Origin: Lacibacter sp. H375
GTDB lineage: Bacteria; Bacteroidota; Bacteroidia; Chitinophagales; Chitinophagaceae
Length of the DNA: 64,000 bases
Direction: 5' to 3'
NCBI RefSeq assembly: GCF_037892425.1
Contig: NZ_JBBKTT010000001.1
Location: 4,216,001 to 4,280,000, forward strand
The notes below the pieces were generated by a model. That model was not told the DNA's origin and ran no database searches. It worked only from the letters and a program-made list of their open reading frames with translations. The position numbers and the translations under genes are program-made. Below are positions 5,220 to 8,663 of the stretch, in pieces; the first letter of the stretch is position 1, and every line of letters begins with the position of its first letter.

Positions 5220-6701
5220 ATGAAATTAAAAATATTATCCCTCCTACTACTATCTTCAATAATCTTTTCTTCTTGTAAGAAGAGTTTTTTAGATACTTTC
5301 TCAACCACTGCTGTTGCCGCTGCTGACGCATTATCCAGTACAAAAAACGCATGGGCTGCTCTTAATGGCATTCATCGTATTATGTACACGCAATATGATG
5401 CACAACCACAAGGGGGAACATCTGCGATAATGGTTATAAGAGATTTAATGGGCGAAGATGTACTTTACACTTTGGCAAATGGCAGGCAAGATTTTGGCAA
5501 CCATCTAAAATGGCTCAATCATCGAAATGTAAATTCCGGAGATACTCGATTTGTTTATCGCCTTTACTATCGAATTATTTCAAATGCTAATGTTCTAATT
5601 AACGGAATAGATGGAGTACCAGGTCCTCAAGCAGACAAGAATTATATAAAAGGCCAAGCGCTTGTTTATCGAGCTTGGGCACACTTTGAACTGGTTCAGT
5701 TTTGGGGTGAGCGCTTTGTTGCAGGAAATCCTAACAACGGATTAGGGGTGCCGCTTTTAACTACAAATACACTTGAAGGACAAAAGCGGGCAACTGTAGC
5801 CGAAGTTTATACACAAATTAATAAAGATCTAGATGAAGCTATTTCACTGCTTGATGGTTACGTTAGAACAGGCTCCGCTGCAAAATCGAATTTTAATAAA
5901 AATGTAGCTCAAGGAATTAAAGCACGTGTAGCGCTCACTCAGCAAAACTGGGATGTTGCGGCTACCATGGCAATTGCTGCAAGAAGTGGTTTTGCTTTAA
6001 TGAGCAACGCAGACTATACGGCGGGGTTTAATAATACTGGTATTTCTGAATGGATGTGGGGTAGTGATCAAATAGCTGATCATAATACATTCTTTTGGTC
6101 ATTTTTTGCTAACATGGGTTGCAACTTTAACGGCACAAATACAAGAACTCAACCCAAAGCAATCAATTCAGCCTTGTGGAATACATTACCTGCAACAGAT
6201 ATAAGAAAAAGTGTTTTTGACTTAACCGGTGCAGGCGTTCCTATTCCTCCGGGTGGTGCCAGAATACCTTACCAAAGCAAAAAATTTCTTGCATTTGATA
6301 ATGCAACAAGTATTGGCGATGTGCCATACATGCGTGCTGCAGAAATGTATCTTATTGAAGCAGAAGCAAGAGCTCGTCAAGGTGGACGTGATGCTGATGC
6401 ACAACAAGCGTTATTCACGTTAATTAAAAACAGAAATCCCAATTACGTGTTATCAACAAACACAGGAGTTGCACTTTTAGACGAAATTCTATTTCACAGG
6501 AGAGTTGAGCTTTGGGGTGAAGGATTTAGATGGTTTGATCTTAAGCGAATGAACGTTCCTCTTGACAGAACTGTTGTCCCGAACACTAATGCCACTATCT
6601 CTTTAACATTAAATGTTCCTGCCAACGACAAATTATGGCAATGGCTTTTCCCACAAGATGAGATGAATGCCAATCCTAATTTGGAACAAAACCCGTTATA
6701 A
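5220..6701 (+). CDS. SusD/RagB-family nutrient-binding lipoprotein
   Basis: This 493-residue lipoprotein has the N-terminus MKLKILSLLLLSSIIFSSCKK, with a lipobox Cys at position 19. It shows the helical TPR-like body of SusD proteins, with the usual motif of family members near residue 145 (YIKGQALVYRAWAHFELVQ) and the C-terminal RRVELWGEGFRWFDLKRM signature. SusD proteins cap the SusC barrel on the cell surface and bind substrate. It starts 14 bp after the SusC stop and ends at a strong terminator, so the two form a two-gene operon. Confidence 0.95.
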   Translation: MKLKILSLLLLSSIIFSSCKKSFLDTFSTTAVAAADALSSTKNAWAALNGIHRIMYTQYDAQPQGGTSAIMVIRDLMGEDVLYTLANGRQDFGNHLKWLNHRNVNSGDTRFVYRLYYRIISNANVLINGIDGVPGPQADKNYIKGQALVYRAWAHFELVQFWGERFVAGNPNNGLGVPLLTTNTLEGQKRATVAEVYTQINKDLDEAISLLDGYVRTGSAAKSNFNKNVAQGIKARVALTQQNWDVAATMAIAARSGFALMSNADYTAGFNNTGISEWMWGSDQIADHNTFFWSFFANMGCNFNGTNTRTQPKAINSALWNTLPATDIRKSVFDLTGAGVPIPPGGARIPYQSKKFLAFDNATSIGDVPYMRAAEMYLIEAEARARQGGRDADAQQALFTLIKNRNPNYVLSTNTGVALLDEILFHRRVELWGEGFRWFDLKRMNVPLDRTVVPNTNATISLTLNVPANDKLWQWLFPQDEMNANPNLEQNPL

Positions 6702-6714
6702 ATAAATTATAACA

Positions 6715-6754
6715 GACAAAAAAGGTTGACTGAAATTCAGTCAACCTTTTTTTG
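6715..6754 (+). terminator. Rho-independent terminator of the susC/susD operon
   Basis: A perfect stem GGTTGACTGAA / TTCAGTCAACC with a minimal loop is preceded by A6 and followed by T7, starting about 14 nt after the SusD stop. The A/T flanks make it usable in both directions. Confidence 0.93.
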
Positions 6755-7003
6755 GTCCATGTATTTTCTTGAATTTACCCATAGAACAATAATATATGAA
6801 GCTTTGACTGAGACACAACACAAGAAGCATTAACCATCCTTACAAAAAAAACCAGACTTGCCGTAAGGTATTAATTCCTTTAAACAAAATCATCTAACCG
6901 TGCCACATCTGATGGCATTAGGAAAAATTTTCTCATTAGGATAACCATACAACTTAGAGGAATAAAAGTTCGTTTACAGACTGGTCTGACGGGCCATTCT
7001 ATT
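6755..7003. other. Intergenic stretch between susD terminator and small-peptide unit
   Basis: I see no gene or clear signal in these 249 bases. The sequence just to the right is the first copy of a duplicated small-peptide unit; on the minus strand its transcript would run leftward into this stretch. Confidence 0.4.
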
Positions 7004-7150
7004 GATGGCTTTGGCTCTCCTCGAGCCCAGATTATTCTTATGGTTAAGCCCGGTTACCCGATGACAACCGATGGCGTCCATGATTGATCTGTAGATTTCA
7101 TGAATACCTCCTTTTCTTTGATGAACATTAAATTTATGAAATTACATTGA
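7004..7150 (-). repeat. Duplicated small-peptide unit, copy 1
   Basis: This roughly 147 bp segment matches 7964-8110 at a constant offset of exactly 960 bp without any visible indel. Read on the minus strand it holds a conserved TAAATTTA -7-like box, a perfect AAAGGAGG Shine-Dalgarno, a 15-codon ORF and a GGCTC/GAGCC hairpin. Unlike copy 2, the terminator at its downstream end is decayed: only a short GCCAT/ATGGC pairing and no T-run remain. Confidence 0.9.
7054..7101 (-). CDS. 15-residue peptide, copy 1
   Basis: On the minus strand an ATG at 7101-7099 is followed by MKSTDQSWTPSVVIG and a TAA. GGAGG lies 5 nt upstream of the start, within a perfect GAAAAGGAGG anti-16S match, which is rare in Bacteroidota. 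The reading frame is also open further upstream, but homology to copy 2 begins only shortly before the Shine-Dalgarno, so the short start is preferred. The peptide differs from copy 2 at one residue (Val-Val versus Ile-Ile region, V13I). Function is unknown. Confidence 0.6.
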   Translation of the reverse strand: MKSTDQSWTPSVVIG

Positions 7151-7322
7151 CGACAAAACAATTGTTTAAGGCTTTTATTTGAGCCTTCTTTTATCAAAAT
7201 AAGAACAGACACATATTCATTGGATGTTCGACCGGCAACAACGTTCTTACAGAGGCAACAGCTTCTGAGCATATTGATAGGAAAAATCAAATATCCTTTA
7301 CTGAGATTCTTATTTTTACAAC

Positions 7323-7658
7323 ATGCAACAACAACCCGGATTTATTGAAGACAAACAGTTTGAATGGCAAACGGCAGGCGAAGGTATCCGTCGCAAGATC
7401 ATGGCATATGATCCATCAATCATGCTGGTAAAAGTAGATTTTGAGCAGGCTGCTGTTGGTATTTTACACAAACATGTGCATGTGCAAATAACACATATTG
7501 AAAGCGGGGTGTTTGAAGTAGAGATTGCCGGTGAAAAAAAAGTGCTTGATCCTGGCGATGCCTTTCATATACCATCTAATGTTGAGCATGGAGTTGTTTG
7601 TTTAGAAAAAGGTGTGCTCATTGATGTGTTTAGTCCTATGCGGGAAGACTTTGTGTAA
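7323..7658 (+). CDS. Small cupin-domain protein
   Basis: This 111-residue single-domain cupin has the metal-binding motif 1 pattern in HKHVHVQITHIESGVFEVEI and motif 2 in LDPGDAFHIPSNVEHGV. It resembles small stand-alone cupins that bind sugar or other ligands without an assigned reaction. There is no signal peptide, so it should be cytoplasmic. A YwbE-family gene follows 40 bp downstream on the same strand and the two may be cotranscribed. Both are framed by the duplicated small-peptide units on the opposite strand. Confidence 0.85.
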   Translation: MQQQPGFIEDKQFEWQTAGEGIRRKIMAYDPSIMLVKVDFEQAAVGILHKHVHVQITHIESGVFEVEIAGEKKVLDPGDAFHIPSNVEHGVVCLEKGVLIDVFSPMREDFV

Positions 7659-7698
7659 TAACGAATCAGTTGGGAAGAGTAAAATAAAAAAAGCAGAA

Positions 7699-7905
7699 AT
7701 GGAAGGAACCATCCGCTCAAATATTAAACCCGGCATGCAGGTACTGATCATCTTAAAAAAAGATCAACGAACCGGTGTACTTACCGAAGGCATTGTAAAA
7801 GACCTGCTCACAAGCGCTCCCAAACATCATCGTGGTATTAAAGTTCGTTTGCAGGATGGACAAATTGGGCGAGTGCAGAAAATCATTGATGAAGAAGATG
7901 ATTGA
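7699..7905 (+). CDS. YwbE-family protein (DUF2196)
   Basis: This 68-residue protein starts at the ATG at 7699. It carries the family pattern GTIRSNIKPGMQVLIILKKD, then RTGVLTEGIVKDLLT and HHRGIKVRLQDGQIGRV. YwbE-like proteins are small conserved basic proteins of unknown function. A frame extending upstream from 7612 overlaps the cupin gene and is not the likely start. The gene converges with the minus-strand small-peptide copy 2, whose terminator begins about 40 bp away. Confidence 0.88.
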   Translation: MEGTIRSNIKPGMQVLIILKKDQRTGVLTEGIVKDLLTSAPKHHRGIKVRLQDGQIGRVQKIIDEEDD

Positions 7906-7941
7906 AAACAAGCATAAGCAATCATTTTTTTGGAGAACAAC

Positions 7942-7972
7942 AAAAAAGCCACCAAATAAATTTGATGGCTTT
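7942..7972 (-). terminator. Terminator of small-peptide unit copy 2
   Basis: On the minus strand AAGCCATCAAAT pairs with ATTTGGTGGCTT (one G-U pair) around a short loop, followed by a run of Ts. It closes an autonomous transcript of about 140 nt starting near 8084. Confidence 0.85.
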
Positions 7973-8110
7973 GGCTCTCCTCGAGCCCAGATTATCTTTA
8001 TGGAGAAGCCCGGTTACCCGATAATAACCGATGGCGTCCATGATTGATCTGTAGATTTCATGAATACCTCCTTTTCTTTGGTGAAGATTAAATTTAAGAA
8101 ATTGTATTGA
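7964..8110 (-). repeat. Duplicated small-peptide unit, copy 2
   Basis: This is the second copy of the 147 bp unit at 7004-7150, 960 bp away. On the minus strand it has a TAAATTTA -7-like box at 8096-8089, a TTTG-rich -33 region beyond 8110, a perfect Shine-Dalgarno (8075-8067), the 15-codon ORF, a hairpin GGCTC-N5-GAGCC at 7987-7973, and an intact terminator. The ORF, its ribosome site and the hairpin are the best conserved parts. Confidence 0.9.
8014..8061 (-). CDS. 15-residue peptide, copy 2
   Basis: ATG at 8061-8059, peptide MKSTDQSWTPSVIIG, stop TAA at 8016-8014. GGAGG sits 5 nt upstream. The only coding difference from copy 1 is codon 13 (GTC versus ATT). The peptide has no signal sequence, one Trp and no Cys, so it resembles neither a typical leader with a run of one amino acid nor a classical toxin. 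It is either a translated small protein or a translation-coupled regulatory element. Confidence 0.62.
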   Translation of the reverse strand: MKSTDQSWTPSVIIG

Positions 8111-8156
8111 ACAAAAACAAACTGTTCATATAATAATCACCAAAGATTCAGCAATA

Positions 8157-8199
8157 AAAAGAACACAGGCTTTACAAAATACAATACCTGTGTTCTTCT
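8157..8199 (-). terminator. Terminator of the CHRD lipoprotein gene
   Basis: On the minus strand AAGAACACAGG pairs perfectly with CCTGTGTTCTT around a loop of about 17 nt and is followed by TTTTTA. It lies about 24 nt past the stop of the CHRD gene. Confidence 0.85.
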
Positions 8200-8222
8200 A
8201 AGTTTGTGATTTACTTTGTTTG

Positions 8223-8663
8223 TTATTGCAACACCAATTTCCCCCTAATCTCTCCTGATGGATATGCGGCCGATTGTACATTAATATAATAGGCTCCTGC
8301 TTTTAATTCAGCTGCTGCTGATGCATTCATTTGAATGCTGAATGAAAATGGAGAACCTACCACCGCACCAAGCGATGCAACAATTTCACCATTGGCAGAT
8401 GCTGTTCCTTTTTGAACATACCATCCTGTTGGTGTAATACCGGTGTAAGTAAGCGTACCGGAAAATGTTCCTGTACTTGAATTATACTTACCAACAAAAG
8501 TTGCAGTAGCAGTAGATGAATTTGGAGGAGCTTGATTTGCACCTGTACAATTAGCCTTGTACTGTTCTTCGGTTGTGTTTGTTGATTCCTTTTTACAACT
8601 TATAAAACCCGCCGTTAATAAAAATACGGCAGCAACTGCTGCGAGCTTACTTACAATTTTCAT
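8223..8663 (-). CDS. CHRD-domain lipoprotein
   Basis: This is a 146-residue protein whose start at 8663 gives the lipoprotein signal MKIVSKLAAVAAVFLLTAGF followed by ISCKK. After a short linker the CHRD domain is seen: TATATFVGKYNSSTGTFSGTLTYTGI in pattern, ending in YYINVQSAAYPSGEIRGKL. CHRD domains occur in secreted bacterial proteins and in animal chordin; the biochemical role in bacteria is not established. It should be anchored in the periplasm or on the surface. The gene stands alone with its own terminator. Confidence 0.88.
   Translation of the reverse strand: MKIVSKLAAVAAVFLLTAGFISCKKESTNTTEEQYKANCTGANQAPPNSSTATATFVGKYNSSTGTFSGTLTYTGITPTGWYVQKGTASANGEIVASLGAVVGSPFSFSIQMNASAAAELKAGAYYINVQSAAYPSGEIRGKLVLQ

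Follow-up and report, generated by a model that had tools for sequence, protein, structure and literature searches.

What do two near-identical units, repeated on one strand of the Lacibacter sp. H375 genome, encode behind a perfect Shine-Dalgarno (SD) sequence? We analysed the window, a stretch of 64,000 nt, and found the minus-strand units at 7002-7166 and 7962-8126, each 165 nt long and 90% identical to the other, with a start-to-start distance of 960 nt, so that the duplication claimed in the original prediction stands. The SD, the ORF, the GGCTC/GAGCC hairpin and the -7-like box also lie at the positions given there, and the perfect SD, AAAGGAGGT, is present in both copies, in a phylum where such sites are hardly used. 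The repeat limits of 7004 and 7150 needed correction at the upper edge, which lies at 7166, with the promoter box inside the repeat. No third copy was found in the 5.08-Mb genome by BLASTN or by a covariance model.

The view that one copy is a complete short transcription unit of about 140 nt agrees with what can be recognised in its sequence, namely a -7 box, a leader, an SD, an ORF, stems and a terminator. As judged from the position of the -7 box, the intrinsic terminator and the covariance-model match, the transcript of this intact copy would run along the minus strand (7945-8086) from a start at about 8080-8086 to a terminator end at 7945. The -7 promoter box TAAATTTA (8089-8096) is of the type TAnnTTTG, which we take to be the Bacteroidota consensus. 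Transcription probably starts near UUCACC, which would give a leader near 24 nt; the leader is short and carries an almost invariant AAAGGAGGUAUUCAUG. The SD AAAGGAGGT (8066-8074) lies within a block, AAAGGAGGTATTCATG, that is conserved among full copies, and is followed by the ORF MKSTDQSWTPSVIIG (8014-8061, by translation), which ends in a TAA at 8014-8016. A predicted folded domain, P1-P4 (7988-8051, base numbering by hand), is consistent with a fold z of -5.24 and with covariation, and consists of P1 (8047-8051/7988-7992), P2 (8037-8040/8001-8004), P3 (8033-8035/8008-8010) and P4 (8024-8030/8011-8017), with the stop codon inside P4. Downstream lie the hairpin P5, GGCTC-GAGGA-GAGCC (7973-7987), the sequence of which is free in relatives while its shape is mostly kept, and P6, the intrinsic terminator (7945-7972), a terminator-like hairpin with a T-run and a covarying stem. 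As originally described, this hairpin and T-run occur 3′ of the 7962-8126 copy only, and no terminator was found behind the 7002-7166 copy.

The second copy, also on the minus strand, carries its promoter box at 7129-7136, its SD AAAGGAGGT at 7106-7114, its ORF (MKSTDQSWTPSVVIG) at 7054-7101, P4 at 7051-7070 and P5 at 7013-7027. Compared with its shuffles, the fold of the intact copy is much more stable (z -5.24, none of 200 as good), and that of the second copy only weakly so (z -1.72, with 13 of 200 shuffles at least as good). In two congeners (L162 and L170), a single copy adjoins the same two genes as the 7004-7150 copy of the window, genes which we take to be cupin-like and ywbE-like. This site therefore looks ancestral, now without a terminator, and the 7962-8126 copy looks like a duplicate, which thus appears to have kept the terminator. 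Nearby, at 6718-6752, a perfect 17-bp inverted repeat stands behind a SusD-like gene and is probably a bidirectional terminator.

The RNA recurs in other genomes of the Chitinophagaceae. BLASTN over 195 family genomes gave a match with E below 1e-5 in 46, and in 181 at E <= 1, the latter mostly by chance. A free MAFFT alignment (A1) of 29 of 31 extracted copies, with the near-duplicates L006 and L028 left out, was used to build a covariance model, R1, which at E <= 1e-5 recovered the RNA in 97 of 394 family genomes and 34 of 101 genera, with one copy per genome in 95 of the 97. The search of related Chitinophagaceae with a covariance model, which had been suggested as a check, thus revealed conservation far beyond chance. 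A second alignment (A2) has 98 rows, including 95 loci taken for diversity, and was aligned to R1 and so leans to it; a second model, R2, was built on 98 sequences. When 396 genomes of the order were searched at E <= 1e-4, R2 matched 34, of which two belong to another family, and over a phylum sample it matched 2 of 392 genomes, both known family members, with none outside the order; model searches over more than 40 genomes used stricter filters, which lose weak matches. In a class-wide search with R1, 53 of 346 genomes passed E <= 0.1, and of the 30 loci inspected, all from rows stronger than that of the family's G014 (E 0.04), those in G000 and G004, both of the family, were real by eye. The other 28 lacked the SD-ORF block by eye and mostly resembled gene ends with a terminator. 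An exact pattern matched at least 120 stretches in named genomes; among the 80 matches listed, titles of Chitinophagaceae or Chitinophagales included Chitinophaga, Niastella, Segetibacter, Pinibacter, Puia and Ferruginibacter, and the list also held Bacteroidota, Sphingobacteriales or unclassified MAGs and one match titled Beijerinckiaceae, which we took for a mislabelled bin. The family is patchy, as 3 of 10 listed genomes of the window's own genus carry the RNA. One locus, L059, shares a TTCACCAAAAAAAAGGAGG stretch and looks accidental. In another, L091 (G721), a full copy is followed in tandem by two decayed partial copies without SD and start codon, about 170-185 nt apart.

A relation to a named Rfam family was considered and dropped, as no model reached its gathering cut-off: with Rfam 15 (4227 models), positions 6700-8300 of the window gave 18 matches up to E 5, the best at 21.3 bits, and the loci L010, L097, L110, L354 and L355 gave only two tRNAs, elsewhere in L355. 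The RNA is not described in the open-licence PMC literature searched. It is a new, uncatalogued family of the translated-small-RNA kind, found in soil bacteria of the Chitinophaga type.

The alignments bear on the predicted structure. In A1, 94.0% of the pair cells were standard and two-sided changes numbered 74, compared with 22.4 after shuffling; P2 was the weakest stem (70% paired), with its 3′ side misaligned by MAFFT, and P1 was without any two-sided change. In A2, 93.2% of the pair cells were standard, and 24 of 27 pairs had two-sided changes, in 367 cells compared with 94.2 after shuffling. The P6 terminator stem covaries in both alignments, and the loop-closing pair of P4 was seen in A2 as G-C, U-G, A-U and C-G. 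The sequence of hairpin P5 is free, with a mean of -9.1 kcal/mol over the first 32 nt and a z below -1 in 82% of 139 sequences. In L354 and L355, which belong to another family of the order, the leader and the ORF are kept and a stop-bearing hairpin can be seen by eye, which is plain in the minimum-energy fold of L354 and does not appear in that of L355. P1 is absent from both by eye, so it seems dispensable at this distance. We also considered a likeness of P4 to 16S helix 45 and dropped the idea, since L097, L095 and L110 have a replacement for P4.

The RNA also has the marks of a gene of its own. We collected 140 distinct cores with the SD motif, on which the counts for promoter box, peptide, codons, SD energy and positions -3 and -6 rest. 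A TAnnTT box lies between -45 and -15 from GGAGG in all 140 cores, compared with 37% of mononucleotide shuffles, and in 103 of these cores it lies at -25 or -26. In 137 of the 139 cores tested, four consecutive T occur within the next 75 nt downstream. No conserved neighbour gene was found among 80 loci, and since the neighbours are not conserved, the RNA probably acts in trans. A stand-alone gene with a promoter box, a terminator and no conserved neighbour is also what is expected of an ordinary trans-acting, base-pairing small RNA of the dual-function type, the main rival to the reading that we prefer. Translation would then only open or protect the RNA, and target mRNAs would be bound by one of its unpaired parts, for instance the leader or AAAAUAAUCUG; A1 does offer conserved unpaired stretches for this. 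However, conservation is highest in the SD and its spacer, which fits pairing with 16S rRNA, and the P2-P1 stretch is variable (AATAATCTG, AATATCTG) and not seen in L354 and L355. We regard base pairing with target mRNAs as an unlikely function, though one to be taken seriously.

The reading frame was kept across the family, while the peptide was not. The ORF closes after 13-15 codons in 139 of the 140 cores, and the stops are TAA in 117, TAG in 14 and TGA in 9; of the other two frames, one has its first stop at codons 13-16 in 7 of the 140 cores and the other in a single core. The covariance model, which requires no motif, gave the same picture: of the 80 full copies that it found, 79 close after 13-15 codons and 77 have the exact block AAAGGAGGTATTCATG. 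Two exceptions were L093, in which the SD is changed and the frame has 11 codons, and L255, from a MAG, with a TAA at codon 6 and stems present by eye; this TAA reflects a true nonsense mutation or else an error in the sequence. In the genus g5, the RNA occurs in 8 genomes, and in 5 of these a base is lost near the start and a base is gained after UCAUGG, which makes the middle of the peptide wholly different (MSLQIIHGEPSVGIA, MNLQSIHGKPSVGIA) and leaves the nucleotides and the stems of that part unchanged. The repair after UCAUGG reads GGGAAACC or GGGGAACC in L109, L113, L033 and L121, and GGAAAACC in L123; in L120 the compensating base lies earlier, between CTA and CAG (MSLAAYSWKPSVSIA), and L139 and L141 have the ordinary frame. 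We infer that the lost base was one shared event; if unrepaired, the frame would run for 19-46 codons from UCAUGG on. A frame broken while the pairing is kept had been named as the sign of a non-coding RNA. The g5 genomes show just that in part, with a frameshift and intact stems in five of them, but these five regain the frame ahead of the stop.

The place of the stop is kept as well. All 96 alignment rows that have an SD place it within P4, also where P4 has other letters (L097, L110 and L244), and the pair that holds the first base of the stop is G.U in 21 cases and G-C in 1. Among the 21 other pairs, G.U outnumbers G-C solely at 57-116 (6 to 1) and 70-100 (1 to 0), with few cases. Given the closure counts, the g5 repairs, the stop in P4 and the G.U at the stop pair, the open frame and the P4 stop look selected, and the peptide does not. 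An overlapping ORF from an inner ATG, seen by eye in two sequences, was also considered and dropped, since the linker after P3 varies in length.

Could the product nevertheless be the peptide of 13-15 residues, as a signal precursor, a small protein or an arrest peptide? The original prediction took it for a conserved 15-residue peptide, and indeed almost all copies have an open ORF behind a strong ribosome site, and an SW[TK]PSV-like peptide occurs in most genomes. However, the 140 cores encode 117 different peptides with diverse C-terminal ends, such as GSKF, SLLALG, LPAFAA and SVTNG, several kept residues coincide with paired nucleotides, and g5 reads peptides of the MSLQIIHGEPSVGIA type. 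We compared codon positions in the 118 of 140 cores with the ordinary frame and 15 codons; positions 1, 2 and 3 vary equally (mean entropy 0.59, 0.65 and 0.61 bits), without an excess at the third position. Amino acids conserved beyond the nucleotides, the mark of a small peptide gene, were not seen. The peptide is thus an improbable product, and of the three options offered at the outset, small protein and peptide signal are weakened and a translated regulatory RNA fits best.

The combination of a short ORF, hairpins and a terminator also brings to mind a leader or attenuator of the downstream gene, working by peptide-coupled attenuation. However, in flanks of up to 5 kb around 80 loci, where ORFs were called mechanically from 80 aa upwards, the downstream ORF lies on the same strand at 48 loci and on the opposite strand at 32 (upstream, 35 and 45), the commonest protein cluster within 5 kb, SusC-like by sequence, is present at 13 of the 80 loci, and the gene that comes next after the unit in the window is convergent; cis-attenuation is contradicted by this gene order, which holds no conserved downstream gene, and is very improbable. 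A selfish or mobile repeat without a cellular role, which the two copies in G000, the decayed tandem copies in G721 and the differing neighbours among genera might suggest, is hardly credible, being largely contradicted by the single copy in nearly all RNA-bearing genomes, by the absence of matches to the exact pattern in viral contigs and of BLASTN matches to the window copy in plasmids and phages, and by strong covariation and frame conservation.

Which ribosomes would read such a leader? Three ribosomal proteins of Bacteroidia, bS21, bS18 and bS6, hold the 16S tail, and ribosomes without bS21 prefer mRNAs with an extended SD, according to the available text of PMC9976891, which names rpsU, with a leader of 25 nt, as the one gene with an obvious SD in F. 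johnsoniae. The available part of PMC6847099 gives A at -3, -6, -12 and -13 as favouring SD-less initiation. The RNA has U at -3 in 139 and G at -6 in all 140 cores; it also keeps A at -11 to -14 (139-140 of 140), which favours ordinary SD-less initiation and counts against reading by ribosomes with a free anti-SD. The pairing of its SD with the 16S tail amounts to -13.6 to -15.0 kcal/mol in all 140 cores, with assumed tails in place of the host's own, namely a generic printed tail and one which we take to be that of Bacteroidota; the published threshold of -13 belongs to another program and is no direct yardstick for these energies. With the same assumed tails, the rpsU leaders of 29 family genomes ranged from -2.5 to -15.8 kcal/mol (28 of 30 rpsU loci, L205 and L206 being left out as their start was not located, and L171). 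The rpsU SD is weak (-8.8 kcal/mol or weaker) in 5 of 21 RNA-bearing genomes (G065, G006, G172, G106 and G178) and strong (-12.5 or stronger) in 6 of 8 RNA-less genomes, and the presence of the RNA does not track the strength of the rpsU SD. The rpsU of the window genome has AAAGGAGGTAT, as in the RNA, and most of the family rpsU leaders inspected have a similar GGAGGTAT or GGGGGTAT. At five rpsU loci (L191, L192, L194, L197 and L201), each in a different family genome, the SD is weak and that of the RNA is intact; autoregulation of bS21 by the SD may have been lost there while reading by free-anti-SD ribosomes persists. In the window genome, AAAGGAGGT-N2-8-ATG is no rarer than a reversed control (11 compared with 10), so what is special is not the SD by itself but the fact that it is conserved. 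One of these 11 sites, L180 (C1:4389528), belongs to a presumably Hsp20-like gene with an equally strong SD, AAAAAGGAGGTACGTATG.

Taken together, the sequence evidence indicates that the locus probably encodes a translated, structured RNA of which the peptide is not the product. Whether the RNA is dedicated to free-anti-SD ribosomes is an evenly balanced question. Our preferred reading, held tentatively, is a structured small RNA with a gene of its own that acts through its translation, a riboregulator sensing or titrating such ribosomes. We infer that the normal ribosomes of the phylum hide their anti-SD in the bS21/bS18/bS6 pocket, so the leader would be read mainly by subunits with a free 16S tail, that is, by bS21-deficient or immature 30S. 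A loaded ribosome would unwind P1-P4 and terminate in P4, and with the stop kept in place the 3′ domain P5-P6 would not be entered; without a ribosome, P1-P4 would stay folded. An unread RNA being folded and a read one occupied, the RNA could therefore gauge or tie up the pool of free-anti-SD ribosomes that would also translate rpsU. That the RNA is in fact a sensor or decoy of these ribosomes is a more doubtful proposal.

The nearest likeness is the rpsU (bS21) mRNA of Bacteroidia, which, by the available text of PMC9976891, is autoregulated through an extended SD and, like the RNA, pairs a strong SD, AAAGGAGGUAU, in a phylum that hides its anti-SD, with a short leader (25 nt in F. johnsoniae, probably about 24 here). 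Unlike that mRNA, the RNA is structured and encodes no protein of note, and its SD and spacer are kept even where the rpsU SD of the genome is weak. Leader-peptide attenuators and regulatory uORFs resemble it in that translation rather than the product seems conserved, hairpins overlap the ORF and a terminator follows, but the RNA stands alone, with no conserved downstream gene. SgrS/SgrT and RNAIII/hld are dual-function small RNAs, and like them the RNA is small, contains an ORF and appears to be transcribed from a promoter, and to end at a terminator, of its own; the sequence itself shows the structure, the promoter box, the terminator and the conserved frame. Unlike in these RNAs, the peptide is not conserved, the ORF and the stems overlap and the stop codon is built into a hairpin. 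The last feature recalls tmRNA, a structured RNA with a short reading frame and its stop codon in a helix, but the RNA has an SD and AUG and no tRNA-like domain, and an ARAGORN scan of the window returned neither a tmRNA nor a tRNA.

Specialised bacterial ribosomes are a subject of debate. In F. johnsoniae, rpsU itself is the expected client of ribosomes lacking bS21, according to the available text of PMC9976891. If our reading is true, the Chitinophagaceae would hold a second, independent and conserved RNA with such a leader, and with it a compact natural reporter of the free-anti-SD ribosome pool, and the frame-restoring indels would make it directly visible that an open frame is conserved while its peptide is not. 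Such an RNA might represent a new class of regulator, a suggestion that we make with reserve: a trans-acting RNA whose conserved function is translation by one ribosome subtype, with the peptide as a by-product. It could perhaps serve as a built-in gauge of 30S subunits whose anti-SD is exposed, or as a decoy for them, in which the switch would be the reading of 13-15 codons into a stop-codon hairpin. If this ribosome-gauge reading holds, it would be a categorically new kind of regulator.
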